The position numbers and the translations under genes are program-made. A stretch of DNA of 64,000 nucleotides from Ceratodon purpureus (taxonomy: Eukaryota > Streptophyta > Bryopsida > Pseudoditrichales > Ditrichaceae): NCBI GenBank assembly GCA_014871385.1, contig CM026422.1:24173014-24237013 (forward strand), given 5' to 3'. The notes below the pieces were generated by a model. The model made no database searches, had not been told where the DNA came from, and was given only the letters and a program-made list of their open reading frames with translations. This document shows, piece by piece, positions 20,871 to 59,981 of the stretch (the stretch's first letter is position 1; each line of letters begins with the position of its first letter).

Positions 20871-21232
20871 CACACGCAACCTCCGAACTGAACATCCGCT
20901 TTCATCCATCTCCGCCTCATCCGTCCATGGCGACATTCTCTGTTCTTCCACTTCCTATAAGTCTTGCCGTCGCCCCCCGATTCCATGTAAAATCTTCCTG
21001 AGGCTTCCAGAGCATTCCTGTCTAGCTCTCTCTCTCTCTCGAGTCGTCTTCCTTCGATCAAATCACAACTTGTACACAGTTTTCCAATTGAAACGATATC
21101 GCTATCGCAGTGAGTTGAGAAGAGGTTTGTGTTTTGCGTGAATGAAAAAGAGAGAGTTCCGGGTGTCCATGGACGTTGCGATTGATCTCTAGCGTTTGGT
21201 TTTTTTGAGAGGGCGTGCGTTCTGAGGTGAAG

Positions 21233-22594
21233 ATGCCTGCAGTGTTGCCGATGAGATCGGTCGGGGCCGGGGCGAAGGCGAGGACCGGGGGGGGTCGGGG
21301 TTTGGCTCGGGCGAAGAGTGAGCAGGGGCGGGAGGAGGGGGCGGTTGTGGCGATGAAGGGGGGGAGTACGGTGGGATTGTTGTCGTCGCAGCTTCGGGCG
21401 TGCGCGGCGGCGGGGAATGTTGTGAAGGGGGCGGAATCGGACGCGGAGAAGATCCGGAGTAAGCTTTTTGGGAATGGAGTTGATGTGGAGAATAGGTTCG
21501 GGAATCAGTATATGAGCAGCGGGAGCGAGCACGAGCTGAACTCGGTGTGCTTGGGCGCTATGGTTGATAGGTTCATGGAGGACGAGGTTGATAGTGGCCG
21601 GAGTGTGCGGTCGCGGTGCAGCTGCAAATTCAGCGGGTCGATGTGCGAGTGTGATTTTGATGAGTATAGGTCTTCTCTGGGCGGGGAGTTGTCTGAGATT
21701 CTGCAGGATTTGGTGCCAAGCGCGAACGTGACCGAGCGGATGTTGCTTGGCGAGGTGAACAAGGCAATCGCCGTGGCCAGCGATGTGGTGGCCGCGGAGG
21801 GTGGCGTGACCACCTGCCTTAGGCGCCAGGTGATGAAGCACCTGAGGACCGGCGGGTACAATGCCGCAATCTGCAAGTCGCGGTGGGAGCACGTGGGGAA
21901 CTTCCCTGGCGGTGACTACGAGTACATCGATGTGGTGTTCGAGGGCGCTACGGGCAAGAGCGAGCGGATTATGATTGATATCGAGTTCCGGGCGCAATTT
22001 GAGATCGCGCGTCCGTCGTCGAGCTATAACGCGGTGGTGCAAGTGCTGCCGGCGGTGTTTGTTGGCAAGGCGGACCGGCTATTCCAGATTGTGAACATCA
22101 TGTCGGACGCGGTGAAGCAGTCGCTGAAGAAGAGCGGGCTGGACCTGCCTCCATGGAGGAAGCCGGAGTACATGAGAGCGAAGTGGTTCTCGTCGTACAG
22201 GCGGACGACGAACGACACGGTGCACAAGGCGCACGGTGAGGACATGGCGAACAATATTTCTCGGATCGCTGTCCGGGACCAAGGGTGGAACGCCCGGTAC
22301 ACGGAGGAGATGGAGGTGGACTACCTGCGGGTCGGTGAGAGGCGGGCGATGAAGGACCTGAAGAATCTGATCGCGAAGAAGCCGACGGAGGTTGTGAGCA
22401 CGAAGGCAGCGGCAGTGCCTGCGGTGGTGAACAACAGCGATTGGACACCCCCGGCGCTGAAGCCCCGGGTGTTCCAGCGCCGCGGCCAAGCAGGGCTGGC
22501 ATCGATATTGAGGGAAGCCGGGCTGACGTCGTCAATCAGGAGCTTGATCGAAGAGCAGCGCATGGAACGGAAAAGTCTGCCGATTGCGGTTTGA
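21233..22594 (+). CDS. DUF506 (PDDEXK_6-like) protein, copy A
   Basis: A single-exon gene of 453 codons; the first ATG is at 21233, in the context GAAGATGCC. It belongs to the plant DUF506 family (Pfam PF04720), which has a PD-(D/E)XK nuclease-like fold but no firmly established function. The N-terminal part (about 1-125) is low-complexity and variable. At about 128-144 there is a Cys-rich patch (RCSCKFSGSMCECDFDEY). The family core follows from about 190: LRRQVMKHLR, GYNAAICKSRWEH, YEYIDVV (about 230), IDIEFRAQFEIARP (about 246), LPAVFVGK, then AVKQSLKKSGLDLPPWRKPE and YMRAKWFSS. Length is usual for the family. Codon third positions are very GC-rich, unlike the flanks, which creates long antisense open frames. 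A paralogue lies tail-to-tail at 28020-29243. Confidence 0.92.
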   Translation: MPAVLPMRSVGAGAKARTGGGRGLARAKSEQGREEGAVVAMKGGSTVGLLSSQLRACAAAGNVVKGAESDAEKIRSKLFGNGVDVENRFGNQYMSSGSEHELNSVCLGAMVDRFMEDEVDSGRSVRSRCSCKFSGSMCECDFDEYRSSLGGELSEILQDLVPSANVTERMLLGEVNKAIAVASDVVAAEGGVTTCLRRQVMKHLRTGGYNAAICKSRWEHVGNFPGGDYEYIDVVFEGATGKSERIMIDIEFRAQFEIARPSSSYNAVVQVLPAVFVGKADRLFQIVNIMSDAVKQSLKKSGLDLPPWRKPEYMRAKWFSSYRRTTNDTVHKAHGEDMANNISRIAVRDQGWNARYTEEMEVDYLRVGERRAMKDLKNLIAKKPTEVVSTKAAAVPAVVNNSDWTPPALKPRVFQRRGQAGLASILREAGLTSSIRSLIEEQRMERKSLPIAV

Positions 22595-28019: not shown

Positions 28020-29243
28020 TTAAACCGCTATCGCCATCCGCTGCTCTTTGATCAAGCTCCTGATTGACGACGTCAGCCCGGCTTCCCTCAATATCGATGC
28101 CAGCCCTGCTTGGCCGCGGCGCTGGAACACCCGGGGCTTCAGCGCCGGGGGTGTCCAATCGCTGTTGTTCACCACCGCAGGCACTGCCGCTGCCTTCGCG
28201 CTCACAACCTCCGTCGGCTTCTTCGCGATCAGATTCTTTAGGTCCTTCATCGCCCGCCTCTCACCGACCCGCAGGTAGTCCACCTCCATCTCCTCCGTGT
28301 ACCGGGCGTTCCACCCTTGGTCCCGGACAGCGATCCGAGAAATATTGTTCGCCATGTCCTCACCGTGCGCCTTGTGCACCGTGTCGTTCGTCGTCCGCCT
28401 GTACGACGAGAACCACTTCGCTCTCATGTACTCCGGCTTCCTCCATGGAGGCAGGTCCAGCCCGCTCTTCTTCAGCGACTGCTTCACCGCGTCCGACATG
28501 ATGTTCACAATCTGGAACAGCCGGTCCGCTTTCCCCACGAACACCGCCGGCAGCACTTGCACCACCGCGTTGTAGCTCGACGACGGACGCGCGATCTCAA
28601 ATTGCGCCCGGAACTCGATATCAACCATAATCCGCTCGCTCTTACCCGCGAACACAACATCGATATACTCGTAGTCACCACCGGGAAAGCTCCCCACGTG
28701 CTCCCACCGCGACTTACAAATCGCAGCATTGTACCCACTCGTCCTCAGATGCTTCATCACCTGGCGTCTCAGGCAGGTGGTCACGCCACCCTCCGCGGCC
28801 ACCACCTCGGCAATTGCCTTCTCCACCTCGCACACCAGCACGCGCTCCGTCACGCTCACGCCCGGCACCAAATCCTGCAGAATCTCGGACAACTCCCCGC
28901 CCAGCTGCGACGCCTTGTACTCATCGAAATCGCACTCGCACATCGACTTGCAGCTGCACCGCGACCGCATGACACTCCGGCCACCACCAGCCCCATCCTC
29001 CAAAAACCGATCCACCATCGCACCCAAGCACACCGAGTTCACCTCGTGCTCGCTCCCACTGCTCACACACTCTCGCCCAAACCTGTTCTCCACATCAACT
29101 CCATTCCCAATCCTCTTGCTCCTGCTCTTCCCCGCCTCCGATCCCGCCACTGCCTCACTACCACCACTCCCCATCGCCCCGCATGCTCGCAGCTGCGTCG
29201 ACAACAATCCCATCTTCCCATTCCGCTTCACCACTGGCGCCAT
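28020..29243 (-). CDS. DUF506 (PDDEXK_6-like) protein, copy B
   Basis: A single-exon gene of 407 codons on the minus strand; the first ATG is at 29243 and the stop codon at 28020-28022. It is the paralogue of copy A, facing it tail-to-tail about 5.4 kb away. The same features are seen: a variable N-terminus, a Cys-rich patch (RCSCKSMCECDFDEY, one short deletion relative to A), then LRRQVMKHLR, AAICKSRWEH, YEYIDVV, VDIEFRAQFEIARP, LDLPPWRKPE and YMRAKWFSS. The N-terminal half is diverged from copy A with several indels, while the last roughly 185 residues differ at only a few positions. Function is unknown for the family. Intact frame and strong codon bias argue that it is expressed. Confidence 0.92.
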   Translation of the reverse strand: MAPVVKRNGKMGLLSTQLRACGAMGSGGSEAVAGSEAGKSRSKRIGNGVDVENRFGRECVSSGSEHEVNSVCLGAMVDRFLEDGAGGGRSVMRSRCSCKSMCECDFDEYKASQLGGELSEILQDLVPGVSVTERVLVCEVEKAIAEVVAAEGGVTTCLRRQVMKHLRTSGYNAAICKSRWEHVGSFPGGDYEYIDVVFAGKSERIMVDIEFRAQFEIARPSSSYNAVVQVLPAVFVGKADRLFQIVNIMSDAVKQSLKKSGLDLPPWRKPEYMRAKWFSSYRRTTNDTVHKAHGEDMANNISRIAVRDQGWNARYTEEMEVDYLRVGERRAMKDLKNLIAKKPTEVVSAKAAAVPAVVNNSDWTPPALKPRVFQRRGQAGLASILREAGLTSSIRSLIKEQRMAIAV

Positions 29244-30000
29244 CCCAACTCTCAAACAAGTCTGCAACTTCACCAACTGCAAATTAAACCTGCACTAAAA
29301 CAGTTCGATCAAAGTCTCAACCTTTGAGTACTGATTTGTTCCTTTGTACTGAGAACTGATCTAGTGAATTGTTTGTTGATTGACAGTGAGCTAGTCTAGA
29401 TCAGTTGTGAGATGGGTACAGCGGCAGGATCATCAACTGTCGAAGTGTGCTTTGCCATCTGGGTCCGGCAGCGGAGCTTAAGTAGTGATCGATGAGAGAG
29501 GAGAGTGTTGGAGAAGTTATGATCGAGAGAGAAGCTTGTTCAACACAATATATTGCGTGTGCGTCGCCAACTGCTGTGGTTTATATTTGCAAGCCTGCGC
29601 TCAGGGAATGTATGTGCATTGTCTGCAATTAATTGGATGGATGGAAGGATGGATATGTGTAGTTGTTTTTGGTTTTTTTTTTTTTAATGGTTTTGGTTTT
29701 TTTGGATTTTTTGGTTTTTGTATTTTTTTGGTGTTTTTGTTTTTTTTAGGGGGTGGGTGATGGATGATGATTGTGGACATGGATTGCGTGTGGATTAGTG
29801 CAGTTGAGATTGTATGGGTGAGTCAAAGTTATCTTCAGGACTGTACTTGGCATCCAGGATTGTCTGAATTACTCAGAATTGGAGTGACTTCGAGTTATGG
29901 GAAATATCAGAGATGTTTGTGAAGTTTCCTTCTTTGGTGTGGGTTGATGGACTGCATATTCTTTGTGTTGAAATATGTGTTCTAGTTGTGCGTACTAACT
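29244..30000. other. Upstream region of DUF506 copy B
   Basis: This probably holds the promoter and 5' leader of copy B, reading leftward. No clear TATA box was placed. A T/G-rich low-complexity stretch lies at 29665-29757. No gene is seen. Confidence 0.4.
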
Positions 30001-37415: not shown

Positions 37416-38483
37416 ATGGAGCGAGAAATACCGGACGGAGGGCGGGGACCTCCATCAGCCGAGGGAATTGAGGCTGGTTGGGCCGAGTTCATACAACAAC
37501 AAGTGCAGAGTGTGTTCCAGGCTGCGTTGCCGCATCTGGTTCAGCAAATATCGGAAAGGGCAGTCACGGCGCCTCCCCATACCTCGCCATCTGCGACCCA
37601 ACACCCAGCTGATCGGGATCAACAGAGGACCGACAACAGTGGGGAGTCTGGGGCGGGGGAAAGGGAATCGAGGGTTGCCAAGCCGGAGAAATTTACGGGG
37701 AAAAGGGGTGGGGAGGTATATCGCTGGTTTGCTCAGCTTCGGTTGGTTTTTCGGGCAAATCCGCGCACGTATCGACAAGATGAGGACAAGGTGGCCTACG
37801 CATTGTCCTATCTAAGTGGGGCTGCTCAAAATTGGGCGATGCCACTATTGCAGGCATTGGATGAGGGGCGCAGAAATGACCTGTTACTGGACTACGATGC
37901 ATTCCGAGAAGCCGTGATCTCAGTATATGGAGACATCGATCGGAGGGGAAATGCAGAGGACCGGCTTTCCACACTCCGGCAGACTGGTTCGGTGGCAACA
38001 TACATCTCAAACTTCAACGAGCACGCAGCGCAGGTCGACTGGAACGAATCGAGTTTAGTTGCGCGGTTTCGGGGAGGATTGAAGGATGACATTCTCGATT
38101 CCGTGGCAACCGCTGAAACCCAACCCATGGGCCTCAATGATTGGATGGCAATGGCGTCGAGGATCGACGAAAGGCTATGGACAAGACGTCAATTGCGGCG
38201 ACCTCAGATTCCGTCCGTGAGTCCGAGGGCGCCGGTCGTTGCTGGGAGGGAATCGAGCGGGCGATATCAGGTTGCCTCGGAGGCCCCAGGCCCTGTGCCA
38301 ATGGAGTTAGGCGTCGCTCGCGTCACCACGGCCTTGACGAAAACTGCGGCCGAACGCTTGGAGTTCCAGCGCCAGGGAAAGTGCTGGGGATGCGGTCATG
38401 TGGGCCACCTCCGGTCGAAGTGCCCAACAAATCCGTCAAAACCGCTGATCTTAGCAGCTTCCGAGGCGACTGAAGTATCTTGA
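37416..38483 (+). other. gag region of the chromovirus
   Basis: It encodes the capsid-type domain (retrotransposon gag pattern with YRWFAQLRLVF and FREAVISVYGD) and a zinc knuckle CWGCGHVGHLRSKC near the end. It is part of the element at 36990-42569. Confidence 0.9.
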
Positions 38484-41400
38484 GAAGAGCCGGGAAAAGG
38501 TCCCGCTCGGGACTGAGAACAGAATCTCAGTACCCGGGCCCTATGGGAGGGTCGATCGGGCCGTCATTGATGCTGCCAAACGGACAGCGGGGGGAGGTGC
38601 AGCGGGATCTACCTCAGGAGGAGCAAGCTGAGGTTTCCACCCCGCTGTATTTGAGGGCAACCTTGGATCCGGAGGCTCATCTAACAGTAGCCGGGCACAT
38701 TAATTCAGTAACTGTAGAGCCCTTAGTGGACTCTGGCGCCACCGGGATTTTCATGCACCCGGATTTTGCTCTCAAATGTCATGCTTTCATTGAACCCAAG
38801 AAGATACCCCGAGAAGTGAGGGTCATCGACGGAAGGGAAATCAGCTCGGGCCTCATCACCCACGAGGCCACCGTGAATTTAAATATATCTGGGCATCAGG
38901 AGGTGTTGGTTGCAGATTTGACCAACACTGGGAGATACCCCTGCATACTTGGAACCCCATGGTTGATAAAACACGATCCCACGATCCGATGGGCAGAGAA
39001 GAGAGTGGTCTTCGATTCCCCATATTGCCACGAGAATTGCTTGCGGCGGGAACGAGATCCGACATTGGAGTGTAAGGTGCCGACGGGAGAAAGAGTTAGT
39101 TTTCAAGACCCAGGAACGAGAGGAGCGGAGAAGCTCCAACAGAATCCAGGAAAATCAAAAGCGCCGAAGCACGCTATAGTGGCTGCGGCCGCTTTCAGAT
39201 TGTCCATGAAACAGGCAGAGGTATACTCGCTAGTGATCTCAGAAATGAATGACTTAGAAGAGAAAAATGATTTGGGTCAAGTCCCAAATGAATATCAAGA
39301 CTTGCATCAAGTTTTTAGCGAAAAATCCTCAAATGAATTACCAGAACATGGAATTTCTGACATGAAGATTGAGTTCAAAGAAGGACAAGAACCAAGGAAC
39401 ACCGGCTTACGACCCATGTCTCCCGTAGAGCTGGAGGAACTCCGGGCGTATTTGGAAGAAAATCTAGGAAAAGGTTGGATCCGTCGATCCAAATCCCCAG
39501 TGTCAGCGCCAATTGTCTTTGCCCGCAAGAAAGATGGCTCTATTCGAGTGTGCATCGATTACCGAAATCTAAATAAGGTAACCATAAGGAACCGCTATCC
39601 CTTGCCACTCATTCCTGAGCTTATAGATCGATTGGTGGGGGCTCGTATATTTACAAAATTAGATGTGCGCCAAGCATACCATCGTATTCGAATGGCTCGA
39701 GGCCATGAGTTTAAAACAGCCTTCAAAACTCGTTATGGCTTGTTCGAGTATTTGGTGATGCCGTTTGGGCTTATGAATGCGCCAGCGCAATTCCAATCGC
39801 ATATGCAGTATATTTTTGCTGATCTCCTGGACATCTCGGTAGTGATCTACCTAGACGACATATTAATATTTTCTAAAGACTTGGATGAACACCGGCAAGT
39901 AGTTCGAGAAGTACTTCAAAGATTGCACAAGTATGGCCTCTACGCAAAAGCTTCTAAGTGCCATTTCCATTGCACATCCGTGGAATTCCTTGGAATGATA
40001 ATTTCATCCCAAGGTCTTGAAATGTGCAAGGACAAAGTTAAAACCATTGAAGATTGGCCCATTCCAAGAACAGTGAAAGAAATCCAGGCATTCTTGGGGT
40101 TCGCAAATTTTTATAGACGATTCATCCATGGCTACTCACAAATCACAGTCCCATTGACTACATTAACCCGAAAAGATCAACCATTCGTATGGAGCTCGGA
40201 TGCAGACAACGCTTTCAAAAACCTTCGATGTCAATTTTCACAGGCTCCGGTATTATTACACCCGAACTTCGAAAGGCCGTTCATCATTGAGACTGACGCC
40301 TCTGACACTGCTACAGGTGGCATCCTCTCACAGCATGGTGATGACGGACACCTTCATCCTTGCGCATATCGCAGCTCAAAAATGTCGCCCACTGAACAAA
40401 ACTACGACATTTATGACAAGGAACTCTTAAGTATTGTCCTTGCGTTCCAAGACTGGAGAGTTTATTTGGAGGGATCTCCCCATGAGGTCACGGTAATTTT
40501 AGACCATAAAAACTTGGAATATTTTTTATCGACCAAACAGTTGAATAGGAGACAAGCTCGTTGATTAGAGATGTTATCAGCTTTTCACTTTGTCATCAAG
40601 CACAGGCCTAGACTTTTAAACGGCAGAGCCGATGCTTTATCACGAAGGGCAGACGTCACTGACTTGAACGACCCACACCCTCGACCACTGTTGAAATTGG
40701 CAGCGCTCGAATCGTGCGAACCGGTATGGACTGACCAACAACTGATACATCGTATCAAAGTATCGACGGACCATGACCCAGCTTTACAGCCAATCGTGGC
40801 ATATTTCAAAAATGGAGCAGACCAGGCTCCCTCTGACGTACGCCGCCGATTCCATGGATATTCTTTCAACGATGGCGTCCTACGGCTCCACAACAAAATT
40901 TGTGTGCCGGATGATGAGAACTTACGCCGGCAAATACTCCGATCCAGACATGACGCCCCATCAGCTGGACACCAAGGGCGGGCAAAAACCTATGATCTCG
41001 TCACAAGGACTTTTTATTGGAGCACGTTGCGACGTTATGTACATCGGTACGTCGATGGGTGCGACACCTGCCAGAGATCTAAACCTTCTCGCCATGCGCC
41101 ATATGGACTGCTGCAGCCCATCCCCGCTGCCGAGGCTCCGTGGAAGCGCATATCCGCTGATTTCATCGTCAAGTTGCCAATAAGTGGAGCCTATGATGCC
41201 ATATTGGTAGTCGTAGACAAGAACACCAAACTCGCACACTTCATTCCGACCACTGAAGCAATAGATTCCAGTGGGCTGGCGACATTATACCTTAATCATG
41301 TCTGGAGGTATCACGGCATTCCTAACGAAGTTATTTCAGACCGGGGACCCGTCTTCGTTTCCAAATTCATGAGAAGATTGTCGGAGCTCTTGCGAATTCG

Positions 41401-42223
41401 GCCATCTCCGACCACAGCGTTCCATCCTCAATCTGACGGGCAGACCGAGCGCGTTAACCAGGTCCTTGAACAGTTCTTGCGGATGTTCACCACACGCCAA
41501 CAAGATGACTGGGCTGATTTATTACCCATTGCCGAATTCTCCTACAATAATACAATCCACTCAGCGACTGGAGTGTCCCCATTTTATGCGACATACGGAT
41601 ATCATCCCTCAATATCTTTCACGATTCCTTCGACCTCTACAGTTCCGGCTGCAGAGGCCCGAATTCAAGAGTTACAACAAATTCATCAAGAAATTATAAC
41701 AATGATTAAAATTGCTGGAGATCACGCAAAGGCTAAGTACGACCAAGCGGGCCACCTACACCGCGTTTTCCAAGTCGGAGACCAGGTTCTGCTTCGACAT
41801 GATAATATCGTTACCACCTGTCCGTCCAGAAAACTGGCCCCGAAGTTCCTCGGTCCTTACGTGATTACAGATAAATTTTCTGACGTCGTGTACCAGTTAA
41901 AGCTACCAAAGACCTTACGAGTGCATAATGTCTTCCACATTTCAGCGTTGGAAAAGTATAATCAAGACACGATCACTGGACGGAAAAAGCACCCCTCCCT
42001 CCCAGTGATAACTCCTGAAGGCCATATTGAATGGGAGGTCGACAGCGTCCTTGATTCACGATTCACTGGTCGATGGAAACAACTGAAATACCTGGTTTCG
42101 TGGACTGGATATGGCCCAGAGCAGAATTCCTGGGAACCTGCGTCACATCTAAAAAATGCACCCGATCGAGTGGCAGATTTTCATCGACTACACCCGAATG
42201 CACCAAGACCTGGAGGGGGGTAA
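38480..42223 (+). other. pol region of the chromovirus
   Basis: In order it carries an aspartic protease (VDSGATG motif), reverse transcriptase (CIDYRNLNKVT, LDVRQAYHRIRM, VIYLDDILIFS), RNase H (ETDASDTATGG), integrase zinc finger and core, and a terminal chromodomain (YLVSWTGYGPEQNSWEP). Treated as a fossil: the region appears to have about one break. Confidence 0.92.
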
Positions 42224-54538: not shown

Positions 54539-55251
54539 TACAGTCAGGTACAGCTCATTTACGAATTCTTGCCCTCAGCCTTCTCTGTGCTTCACAAATT
54601 CCAAAACTTTAAAAATTTGCCAATGTCGGTGGAATTGGTTGTTGACTTCGAATTTTTTTCACCTGGTCCCACTGCTAGAACTAGGCCGAAGACTTATTTC
54701 TCCGCCGTCAAATGCAATACCATTTTCAGAAGAAAAATTTAAATCTCAACATGGGCTTCACATGGCCACGCCGCCCCCTCATGCTTATCGCCACCGCTCT
54801 CCCAATTGAGAGATATAACATGCCTGTTATCTCAATGCATTCAAGCTCCACATATGCTTGGCAACAAGGTCCCCAAGCCTTAGAACATCTCCCATGCTCC
54901 CTCGCCCCTGCATTTCCCGAAATGCATAGGATATACCCAGTTCACGAATGCCCAGGTTTAGCTCAGGTTCAGCTCAGAAAAGCAGCCCAGGTTATGCTCA
55001 GGAGCTCGAGGAGGGAGTATTTATCCTTGTGAGATTGCCGAACCCCAGTGCTTATGGGATAATCTGCAAGCACTTCTTCTGAGAAAGTTACTCATCGGCA
55101 TAGTACTCCTGCTTTTCTGACGAGATCCTCGAATACCGAAGTGAATGGAAGTATATTCATGTGTGTGTCATGGCTTTCAGAAATTAGATGCTATTTCTGC
55201 AAGGCATTAAAACTGAGCTGCCTGGGCTTTGCCGTATGTTGTTATGTGCAG

Positions 55252-55368
55252 GATTTTGGTTATCCCCAAACCACATCAACAGAAGGTCTCAAGTCATTTG
55301 TGTTTAATGAGCCTGTGGTCATAGATGCTGGTCGGATACCTTCACTGGGCCCAACTGCTATGTTCGTT
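55252..55368 (+). pseudogene. Captured exon of AP-4 complex subunit mu
   Basis: The 39 codons read DFGYPQTTSTEGLKSFVF then NEPVVIDAGRIPSLGP, matching the conserved segment of plant AP-4 mu, the medium subunit of an adaptor complex in trans-Golgi and vacuolar sorting. The exon is bounded by a TGCAG acceptor and a GTAAGT donor, so it was taken up as genomic DNA and not from mRNA. No other AP-4 mu exon is found inside or outside the transposon. The frame is intact, which suggests recent capture. Confidence 0.75.
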
Positions 55369-55732
55369 GTAAGTTTCTTTTCCAAGTCACTAGTTGATGG
55401 ATCTTAGCTTTGTTGAAAATGAGAGCAGTTTCTGGTTCTGCATAGATATGTTGAGATGCTGGTTCTGCATAGATCTGTTGAGATGCTGCTTGAAGTGGAT
55501 ACTGATTCGAAACTGGTTCAACTTGAAGTGGATATTGCCATCAGACAGCTTGAAGTGGATAATGATTCAGCGTCTTATGAGCTCAGCTTCAATCGTTTCT
55601 TCTCAATTCCACATCATCTTCAAATATATATTTGGTGAGTTTTATTTCCATATCTTCTTTGGTCTTATTTTACAATGAATTCTCAAATGTTTCTTCAATT
55701 CTCATAGACTTAATTGCAATTTACAGATCATC

Positions 55733-56746
55733 ATGCGTACCCGAACATTGAGCAATCACGAGAGGGGTCTAATCATAGAATTGAGGAATGCTGGGATTAA
55801 ATCTGGACGGATTGCAGAATTACTGGGAATGCCTCGTTCTACCGTTTCCACAGTTCTAACAAAATGGAAGAAATTTGGGTTTAATACCACTCAGAAACCT
55901 AAACCGCGACCACCAAAGCTATCTAATCGTTCAGTTAGGGATCTAGCACGCCTTGTTCAAGGAGATCGTCGATTAAATTTAGTATCAATTGCAGAGAGTT
56001 TTGGTGTTCATAGAAACACCATCCGCACTTACATGCGACAACTTGGATTTGGAAGTCGGGTAGCTATAAGGAAACCTTTCCTTAGTTTTATGCATAGAAA
56101 AAAGAGATTAGCATTTGCTCGTAGATACAGGCATTGGACAGCCGAAGATTGGTCAAAGATTATCTGGACCGATGAATGTTCTCATGAATTGGGTAAAGAT
56201 TCTCGGCGGATTCGAGTTTGGAGAAAAGGTCATGAAAAATATGCCGACCAATGTCTTGCGCCAACATTCAAATCAGGGAGAACATCCGTTATGGTGTGGG
56301 GAGCATTCACAGGTTTTGACAAGAGTCCTCTCGTTTTTTTACCAGAAGGGGAGCGAACGGCAATTCCTTTTGTGGAACATGTCTATGATAGTGTTCTCTG
56401 TGGCTTTTATTTCATGCACGATGCATCACATGAACTTCTCTTAATGGAAGATGGTGCTCCTGTGCATCGTGCTAAGCTTTCTGGACTTTGGAGACAAGCA
56501 CATGGCATTCAGAAATTGCAATGGCCTGCCAATTCACCCGACTTGAACTCCATTGAGAACCTTTGGAAAACCATGAAAAACAAGTTTCGTTATTACAAGA
56601 GACCGCGCAACAAGGAGGAAATGAGGGCACTCATTCAAGTCATTTGGAATGACATTTCTCTTGAACAACTCCAACGGCTGATTGAAACCATGCCTAGACA
56701 AATGCAAGCTGTGATTTCAGCAAGGGGGGGTAGCACTCGATGGTAG
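55733..56746 (+). CDS. Tc1/mariner DD34E transposase
   Basis: 337 residues, the usual length for a Tc1 transposase, from an ATG at 55733. Residues about 1-110 form the paired-type DNA-binding region with two helix-turn-helix motifs (GRIAELLGMPRSTVSTVL and then SIAESFGVHRNTIRTYMRQL). The catalytic domain follows: first Asp in IIWTDECSHELG (about 147), second Asp in LLMEDGAPVH (about 241), and Glu in NSPDLNSIENLW with exactly 34 residues between the second Asp and the Glu, so DD34E. Between them are VMVWGAF and LQWPANSPD, standard Tc1 blocks. All catalytic residues are present and the frame is open, so it could be active. A GTGAGT...TTACAG pair at 55635-55732 may be a leader intron. Confidence 0.93.
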   Translation: MRTRTLSNHERGLIIELRNAGIKSGRIAELLGMPRSTVSTVLTKWKKFGFNTTQKPKPRPPKLSNRSVRDLARLVQGDRRLNLVSIAESFGVHRNTIRTYMRQLGFGSRVAIRKPFLSFMHRKKRLAFARRYRHWTAEDWSKIIWTDECSHELGKDSRRIRVWRKGHEKYADQCLAPTFKSGRTSVMVWGAFTGFDKSPLVFLPEGERTAIPFVEHVYDSVLCGFYFMHDASHELLLMEDGAPVHRAKLSGLWRQAHGIQKLQWPANSPDLNSIENLWKTMKNKFRYYKRPRNKEEMRALIQVIWNDISLEQLQRLIETMPRQMQAVISARGGSTRW

Positions 56747-56989
56747 GTAGTTGGCACGTTAATTATAGAATGTTTCATTATTTGGAAGTTTCATGTATTT
56801 TTTTTTTTTTGTAAATAAAGTACTCTTCACTACGAACCCACAGCAACTTTCGGTTTGAAAATCGGACTGTTTTTGAGCATGATACAGCTTTCCCAAGTTC
56901 ATGAACTTCCCTGTGCACTTGGGCTGCAGACAAGAATTCGTAAATGAGCTGTACCTGACTGTACAATAGGATTTTCATGAAGTGATTGG

Positions 56990-57787: not shown

Positions 57788-59981
57788 TTAAGCTGGAGTT
57801 TGAAGAGTGAAGTTCCGGGCAACAGTGGGCTCTGCAGCTCGGGTAGGCTCCGGCCGGCTCCTCTCATGCTCCAACGGAGTGGGCTTCCAAGGACCTGGAG
57901 GGAGACCCTTTGGTGCAGGCTCACCAGTGGACATCCGTGTCGCGACACCATCTACTCCAACAATTCCCTTGTAGATAGACAGCGCTTGAGCAACCATAGC
58001 TGCTGGGTCAGCAGTATTGCTAGGAAGAAGCATCGTTGTACTTTCCTTCGCAAGGTTACTGAAGGCTTGTAAGTACTGCTCTGCGATACGAAGGGATGCT
58101 GCCTCAGACCCTCCCTCTGCACGGATGGCATTCGACAGCAAGTAGATACCCTTCGAAGTTGCTTCAGCACGAGCCAAAATAGCTTCCGCCTCTCCCTTTG
58201 CTCGGTTCACCTGACCAAAGAAAGCCATGAAACATGTAAGACATGTAAGTATATGCAAACAGGGAGCCTTGAATCGCAGTATAGACACTAAAAAACAAAC
58301 ATGGATGGAGCTACTAAAACATCGGGAGCAAGGTGTGATGAGAGAGCCTGGCGAGCACGCCTACCTGATCCATCATAGCTGCTTCAGATTCCAAAATCAC
58401 CGAATTCTTCTTTCCGTCAGCAATGTTAATATGAGATTGTCTCTCTCCTTCAGACTCAAGAACCTGCGCTCTCTTTCGCCGCTCTGCCTCCGCTTGCATC
58501 TCCATAGCCGCTCTCACACCTGGAGGTGGAGATATGTCTCGAATCTCATATCGCAAGCACTGGAGACCCCAGTCTGAAGCAGCTTCGTTGATCGACTTCA
58601 CAATGTTTTCGTTCAGAGTATCTCTCTCCTCGAAAGTCTTGTCAAGGGTGATCTTACCGAGTTCCGACCGCATAGTTGTTTGCGCAAGCTGGAGTCAACA
58701 CAGATGACCATTATCAGAAACAAGTTACGCCTCCAAGCTGAATATTGAAATGACAAAACAACTTCTATGAACAGCTCGAGACATAGTTTAAAGACACTAA
58801 CTATCGAACTCAAGAAAAATTCCTAACAGCACACGGGTTCATAATTTTGTTATCAGGCTAAGCAATTTAGCCCACTCGTATTGTAAATTGTAATTATCTT
58901 GACACAGTTTTCCAAGCAGGAAACGACAGGAATAGAGCTCTACACACTGGTCACCAGAATTCAAGAACTCGGGCATCAGTGTCTACTTGACAACAAAAGT
59001 AAGATAGGGCAAGGAACCTACAGACACTTTCCATCTACCCATTAGATCGTCAGAATCTAAGCCACACAAAGAGAACAATTAAATTGCATTACTTAAATAC
59101 CTGAATGATAGCATATATCGGATTTTCCACTCCATATGAAGCCCGAATAGGGTCCACAATCTTGAGGTACAGCACTCCATCAATTGAAATGCTGACGTTG
59201 TCTTTCGTGATAGCAGTCTGGTTCGGAATCGGAATGGCTTCCTCCTTCAAAGAATGCACATAAGCGATCCTGTCCACAAGAGGGATCATGACATGGATAC
59301 CTGCTCCCACCGAGATTTTATTCAGATTCTCAATCAAACGTTCCCCATTTGCATTCAAGCTCATCAACTAGAGCGCAACTTGAAATTCGTGACAGAAAAA
59401 CCAAAACGCTCTCAAAATCAATGAAAAAAATTCTTACACCCCGCAACCAAATCAAGAAAACCCTAGCACGACCGCAACGCGAAATCAAAAACTAATCAGA
59501 GAGAATCCAGACCACATTCTCAAAATTCAGGCAACAAACCTGATCCCAGCGTCTTCAAATACTTCCCGAAGCGCTCGATCACGAACGCGCTCTTCTCCGG
59601 AACGATCCGCAACCCCCAATTCGTCGGCGGAGACATCTCATACCGAAAGCTGGGATCATCGCGCCCGCTCCTAAACCCCCGCACAGGCGTCCAACTCCCG
59701 AGCGCTCTCACCACGGCATTGTCCGCGCCACGAGCCCCAAACCCCGACACAAACCGCGACGACGCACCAACGCCACCACCACTCCCCGATCGCACCGCAC
59801 TAAACCCTCCCGTCGCCGCAGCTCTGCCCGCAGGCGATCGCGCAGACCTCAACAGCGCTCTCGCCCCCAACGTCCCCAGCGCCTTCGCCACAGTCGCACC
59901 GCCCCCCGCCGATCCCACAGACATCGCCAGCGCCCTCGCCCCCAACGTCACCACTGCCTTCGCCTCGCCACTCGACGCCAT
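57788..59981 (-). CDS. Mitochondrial stomatin-like protein (SLP2 type), 4 exons
   Basis: Minus-strand exons are 59981-59540, 59300-59101, 58688-58365 and 58210-57788, giving 1389 bp (462 residues). All introns are GT-AG and phases agree. The first roughly 115 residues are Ala/Arg/Gly-rich with few acids, a mitochondrial targeting sequence. The SPFH/band-7 domain follows: [20 protein letters not shown], then [46 protein letters not shown], and [14 protein letters not shown]. The C-terminal part ([36 protein letters not shown], then STTMLLPSN) is a coiled coil typical of stomatin-like protein 2, which forms large complexes in the inner mitochondrial membrane. The plant homologue (Arabidopsis AtSLP1/2) supports respiratory supercomplexes. 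Confidence 0.93.

Follow-up and report, generated by a model that had tools for sequence, protein, structure and literature searches.

Capture of host sequences by DNA transposons is well known (PMC13317346, PMC8903248, PMC8277862, PMC2572040), whereas no description was found in the open-licence literature of Tc1 elements that encode a transposase and have repeatedly captured host DNA at a single position in the leader, as judged from titles and abstract openings. Among cut-and-paste elements, capture has mostly been described for those without a transposase; mariner elements with gene fragments are known from rice and maize and are non-autonomous, and the packFinder survey separates the elements that do have a transposase, with any element giving a transposase match being classed as autonomous (PMC8903248). 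Tc1-like DD34E elements have already been described in a moss, as PpTc1 and PpTc2 (PMC4054914), and a closer relationship to fungal elements than to those of other plants has been described for the moss ones (PMC7466625).

Here, we analyzed a 64,000-nt stretch of the Ceratodon purpureus genome (C2:24173014-24237013; hereafter, the window) and searched the 362.5-Mb assembly, which comprises 151 contigs, including contig C6 of 110.5 Mb. Positions 54541 to 56961 of the window were confirmed to be a transposase-encoding Tc1-like element that carries host AP-4 mu DNA.

The element and its AP-4 mu segment

The features of the element are as follows (window coordinates):

54541-56961, (+) strand: whole Tc1-like element, 2,421 bp, with CAGT...ACTG ends (sequence reading and nine other AP-4 copies)
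54539-54540, unstranded: left TA target-site duplication
56962-56963, unstranded: right TA target-site duplication
54541-54571, (+) strand: 5′ terminal inverted repeat (TIR), 31 bp, perfect, read from the sequence
56931-56961, (−) strand: 3′ TIR, 31 bp, perfect, read from the sequence
55018-55024, (+) strand: TATA-like box TATTTAT, putative core promoter of the transposase gene
55073-55081, (+) strand: left edge of the capture site (CTTCTTCTG), from the junction alignment, by eye
55082-55431, (+) strand: captured AP-4 mu gene segment, 350 bp, 93% identical to C8:1587568-1587916, same sense as the transposase
55252-55368, (+) strand: AP-4 mu exon, 117 bp, 39 codons, open, acceptor GTGCAG and donor GTAAGT kept
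55432-55488, (+) strand: tandem 27-bp unit, 2.1 copies, bordering the captured segment on the right
55635-55726, (+) strand: predicted 5′-UTR intron of the transposase gene, 92 bp, GTGAGT...TTACAG, from splice-like signals in relatives
55733-56746, (+) strand: DD34E transposase open reading frame (ORF), 337 aa and stop

An inverted-repeat search also recovered a 43-nt arm pair at the element ends (93% complementary). The 337-aa ORF matched the Pfam families HTH_Tnp_Tc3_2 (E = 3.9e-13) and DDE_3 (E = 8e-13) as well as Sleeping Beauty SB100X (E = 2.7e-29), and the spacing from the second D to the E, hand-counted on the ORF translation, is 34 residues for the residues that we take to form the DD34E triad. 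Together, the CAGT...ACTG ends, the TA duplication, the HTH and DDE domains, and the 34-residue spacing place the element among the Tc1-like (DD34E) members of Tc1/mariner. ORF integrity and copy similarity suggest that the transposase may be active. The TATA-like box was present as GTATTTAT or GTATATAT in all 18 family copies examined (see below). The predicted intron lies just before the start codon, with its signals recurring in most of the relatives read; L026 lacks the donor region and L028 was unmatched there. The 27-bp tandem unit resembles the site sequence of empty relatives. The first-pass annotation, made from the letters alone, had described perfect TIRs with TA duplications, an open DD34E transposase, and an intact AP-4 mu exon with its splice sites, and all three are in place.

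Elsewhere in the window, a stomatin-like ORF (57788-58288, (−) strand; Band_7_C, E = 6e-27) is separated from the element's right end by 827 bp. At 37416-42223 on the (+) strand, long ORFs resemble, by eye, the gag and pol genes of a Ty3-type LTR retrotransposon, the gag-like part having a CCHC knuckle, and two closely similar long ORFs in opposite orientation, ~5.4 kb apart (21215-22594, (+) strand; 28020-29282, (−) strand), are apparently an inverted gene duplicate, as judged by eye.

The captured segment aligns with the intact AP-4 mu gene at 93% over 353 bp (515 bits), and the same arrangement recurs in nine more copies, which argues against a chance match. In it, the 117-bp exon keeps both splice sites and stands between the last part of one intron and the first part of the following one; since intron ends flank the exon, the piece was copied from DNA rather than from spliced RNA, in agreement with the DNA-level capture originally proposed. 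The 194-aa host peptide encoded by four exons, including the captured one, has the AP-4 complex mu-1 as its best solved relative (E = 5e-40), followed by AP-1 mu (5e-33), and matches Adap_comp_sub (3.1e-17). The element's own exon-bearing ORF (88 aa) gave AP-4 mu-1 at E = 0.032, is too short to name firmly, and had no Pfam match. When 5.7 kb around the gene was used as the query, 10 element copies and the intact gene contained the piece, and no other place in the genome did (35 of 35 candidates scored). The gene is located on C8 and the window on C2, so the gene does not surround this locus, a doubt that the annotation itself had raised.

Comparison of the window copy with the intact gene revealed 5 differences in 117 exon positions and 16 in 232 intron positions (gaps uncounted), while the AP-4 copies differ from one another by 1.6% on average in the intron parts (nine copies, L030 left out). 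Because the divergence from the gene is the larger of the two, the capture looks older than the spread of the AP-4 copies. Splice dinucleotides are kept in all 10 copies. L034 (1-bp loss) and L030 (stop) no longer have an open exon frame, and post-capture exon changes are mostly amino-acid changing (by eye); therefore, coding use of the exon is not indicated, and selection on it is not supported.

Family copies and other host inserts at the same site

The family comprises 18 copies (the window copy and L022-L038, L030 included), which is a lower bound drawn from the best 40 of 156 candidates; L039 (376 bp matched), L040 (163 bp), and matches of 64-72% identity were left out. Its elements measure 1.8-2.8 kb. 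TA adjoins both ends in 15 of the 18 copies examined; L023, L029, and L038 are without a 5′ end and were therefore not counted among the copies with a complete TIR pair. Host DNA is present in 14 copies: 10 carry the AP-4 piece, two (L022 and L023) a piece from the 5′ flank of an aspartic-protease gene, and two (L024 and L027) a two-piece insert, the remaining four (L025, L026, L028, and L029) being empty, as judged by eye. Carriage of the AP-4 exon by every copy, as considered in the first-pass annotation, is thus borne out for 10 copies and fails for the other 8 of 18 (L022-L029), in which the middle of the window element, including the AP-4 piece, did not align.

An ORF of 333-340 aa is found in 8 of 10 AP-4 copies, in both protease-flank copies, and in none of the 6 others. 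A mean dN/dS of 0.84 (9 of the 10 intact ORFs, 36 pairs) does not demonstrate selection for recent function; values for intact ORFs against broken copies were ~0.68 (L025) and ~0.50 (L026). In the transposase tree, in which 3 of 17 inner branches are well supported, L022 and L023 nest weakly with the AP-4 carriers (80/73, drawn open), and the two-piece carriers L024 and L027 are not sisters, L027 joining the empty copies (94/95).

The insert of L022 and L023 (~343 bp) has a sole other match in the genome, C8:7583899-7584247, at 90% (3 of 3 candidates scored). Downstream of this source is an aspartic-protease-like ORF (TAXi_C, 7.9e-33), and the orientation matches that of the transposase. The insert of L024 and L027 consists of two joined pieces from two chromosomes (4 of 4 candidates scored), part 1 from C7:12333675-12333948 (L042; 82%) and part 2 from C5:8201381-8201678 (89%), with 3 bp (AAA) common to both parts at their join. 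Some 40 bases separate the end of the C5 source from the start codon (ATG) of an opposite-strand BAP31-like ORF (E = 6.8e-4, below the Pfam cut-off). No element was found around the source piece in the source loci (9.9 kb each), which outside the piece gave only three matches (21-41 bp, E 6.8e-4), each of them in the non-coding sequence at the 3′ end of elements.

The capture site lies between the TATA-like box and the predicted 5′-UTR intron. The left ends of the three insert kinds fall within about 11 bp (junctions by eye), while the right ends are not shared, with the two-piece insert reaching about to the predicted intron. Junction homology amounts to 0-3 bp (by eye), which is compatible with end joining of filler DNA, and homology singles out no repair route. 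At the level of sequence, three insert kinds match separate loci and sit at one site, each in at least two element copies.

Two further extra pieces considered as captures were rejected as high-copy nested repeats, namely ~740 bp in the leader of L026 (L026:2880-3640; best 40 of 2,557 candidates) and ~389 bp in L030 (L030:2284-2673; best 40 of 1,282 candidates). The L030 repeat has ~39-bp inverted ends, and 30 of the 40 full-length copies scored (best 40 of 1,282) are on the 110-Mb contig C6. TIR-like ends numbered at least 188 (at least 98 forward and at least 90 reverse), and 11 sites were read among the matches listed (L051-L061) and compared with 6 of the 18 family copies. Six of these (L051-L056) are short elements of 505-994 bp, palindromic and non-coding by eye, that have only the TIR (~32 bp) in common with the family and are perhaps MITEs moved by the same transposase. 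The other five (L057-L061) have one matched end and, likewise, only the TIR in common, L058 also matching the L026 repeat. On this comparison with six family copies, capture in short elements with the same TIR was rejected. For other Tc1 subfamilies, sizes and repeats were compared in six regions (L045-L050) taken from 119 transposase matches (best 119 of 710 candidates): L047-L050 are compact (~1.7 kb), L046 measures ~1.8 kb, and repeat inspection of L045 gave no clear TIR pair.

Probable leader exchange, proposed mechanism, and alternative explanations

The outer parts of L022 are 99.5% identical to the AP-4 carrier L032, whereas the inner leader is only 83% identical and holds a different insert. 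Specifically, the two copies differ at 8 of 1,622 outer positions (1/209 on the left and 7/1,413 on the right) versus 50 of 302 inner positions (Fisher 1e-33, with bounds set after viewing the alignment); the stretch right of the insert (element 892-1014) is intermediate (10/123). L022 and L023 have 100% identical inserts, preceded by three inner-leader windows (element 200-538) that are only 91-98% identical, a contrast with no simple explanation. A search for the donor of the L022 leader was unsuccessful: outside L022 and L023, most of the inner leader has no match better than 80%, although 66 bp of it match L026 at 97%. The alignment with L032 indicates that outer and inner parts of different origin are combined in at least one element, a mosaic. 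The tree positions of L022 and L023 with the AP-4 carriers and of L024 apart from L027 agree with leader exchange, although tree support is short, and the latter also weakens a one-capture history for the two-piece insert.

We consider it probable (roughly 80%) that host DNA was captured recurrently at one leader site through template-switching repair, that leaders were exchanged, and that transposition then spread the products. The repeat-rich leader stretch with its 27-bp unit would suffer a break or stalled copying, and the break would be mended by copying other loci, through template switching during gap repair or replication, which would explain the unlinked sources, the two-piece insert, and the exchanged leader. 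Similar repair may also have moved leaders from one element to another, after which the transposase would spread filled elements. With its position between the putative core promoter and the coding sequence, the leader is where inserts should do least harm, which would account for its tolerance of them. Whereas the inserts, their sources, their common site, and the mosaic can be read from the DNA sequence, we infer the repair route, along with the promoter, the intron, and any advantage for the element.

A rather unlikely alternative is that captures or insertions occur anywhere in the element and only those in the non-coding leader survive, in which case the shared site marks no hotspot. The leader is the longest non-coding stretch, and an insert elsewhere does go with a broken copy, as in L030, where the ~389-bp repeat sits in the transposase. 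Survivorship alone, however, predicts a spread over the ~800-bp leader rather than three left ends within so few bases (P = 0.0006 for three uniform breakpoints, in a post hoc test that assumes three independent events).

It is doubtful that leader swapping has been selected, with host-derived leaders altering regulation, evading homology-dependent silencing, or gaining expression. All 10 full-length ORFs are in capture-bearing copies, and the four empty copies have broken ORFs (10/14 carriers versus 0/4), but the copies are related, leaving few independent cases, and 4 of 14 carriers are broken too. The L022 exchange is limited to the inner leader, and ORFs begin shortly after two of the four source pieces. 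Against this, the AP-4 piece comes from an internal exon and is not a promoter, and it still has 67 of 334 21-mers in common with the host gene, which could invite silencing instead of averting it. We would give similarly low odds to leaders acting as exchangeable cassettes, with the site refilled repeatedly, leaders swapped, and silencing evaded while TIRs and transposase stay constant. Among retroelements, LINE-1 undergoes leader replacement. If leader exchange were adaptive, DNA transposons would have an equivalent of the promoter replacement seen in retroelements, for which BARE-2 has been named (PMC13317346).

Use of the AP-4 exon as a coding exon, spliced in frame to the transposase through the predicted acceptor before 55727, seems very improbable. 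The exon ends on a codon boundary, ATC ATC ATG follows the acceptor in frame, and an upstream in-frame ATG occurs in 8 of 9 AP-4 copies checked (all but L030); against this, one join in three would be in frame by chance, use of the exon would require retention of the upstream intron part, and the frame is broken upstream in L035 in addition to the L034 and L030 lesions. Finally, that TIRs of two different elements surround a gene fragment by chance, or that a gene remnant holds a nested insertion, can be dismissed almost entirely, which also settles the annotation's second doubt, on TIRs from two elements, in favor of capture: we found no point in its support, ten copies have the same arrangement, and TA flanks both ends in the large majority of the family, including eight (L030-L037) of the nine further AP-4 copies (all but L038).

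Comparison with known capture systems

Empty elements, three filled kinds, source loci, and a mosaic are found here in one genome, making the capture route directly testable, and uptake and spread of host DNA by such elements can happen repeatedly. The first-pass annotation had called exon capture unusual for an autonomous-looking Tc1 element in a plant; capture by a transposase-encoding Tc1 element is supported, and the claim is narrowed by the moss Tc1 elements (PMC4054914) and the mariner gene fragments (PMC8903248) already on record. That the AP-4 piece is one of three insert kinds at a single site, and that leaders look exchanged, was not visible from the one stretch available to that annotation.

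As described in PMC4054914, PpTc1 and PpTc2 of Physcomitrella are alike in their moss host, CAGT ends, TA duplication, DD34E transposase, and many similar copies, with a 338-aa ORF and 33-bp TIRs. They differ in size (1,584 and 1,709 bp, versus 1.8-2.8 kb in Ceratodon) and from the Ceratodon family in its long leader and its host DNA in 14 of 18 copies; in the main text of that paper, "captur" and "gene fragment" have 0 occurrences. Turmoil-1, a Harbinger element of C. elegans, carries two host gene fragments at nearby places, one with an intron, from which its authors tentatively infer a hotspot (PMC2572040). It differs in superfamily, in having its fragments inside long ITRs, and in being one full-length copy, and sister elements with alternative inserts are not described in the available text of that source. 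For Pack-TIRs of animals, the gap-filling and FoSTeST models propose that multicopy gene-carrying elements arise through template switching and are then amplified by transposition (PMC8277862), much as proposed here; those are animal elements, and the main text of that paper has 0 occurrences of "tc1" and "mariner". Pack-Mariner and other Pack-TYPE elements are likewise DNA transposons whose TIRs enclose part of a host gene but are defined as non-autonomous (PMC8903248), whereas 10 of 14 Ceratodon carriers have an ORF of 333-340 aa. Since packFinder sets transposase matches apart, the Pack-TYPE label would not be given to elements like the Ceratodon one, which resembles Pack elements in how it works but is not filed with them.
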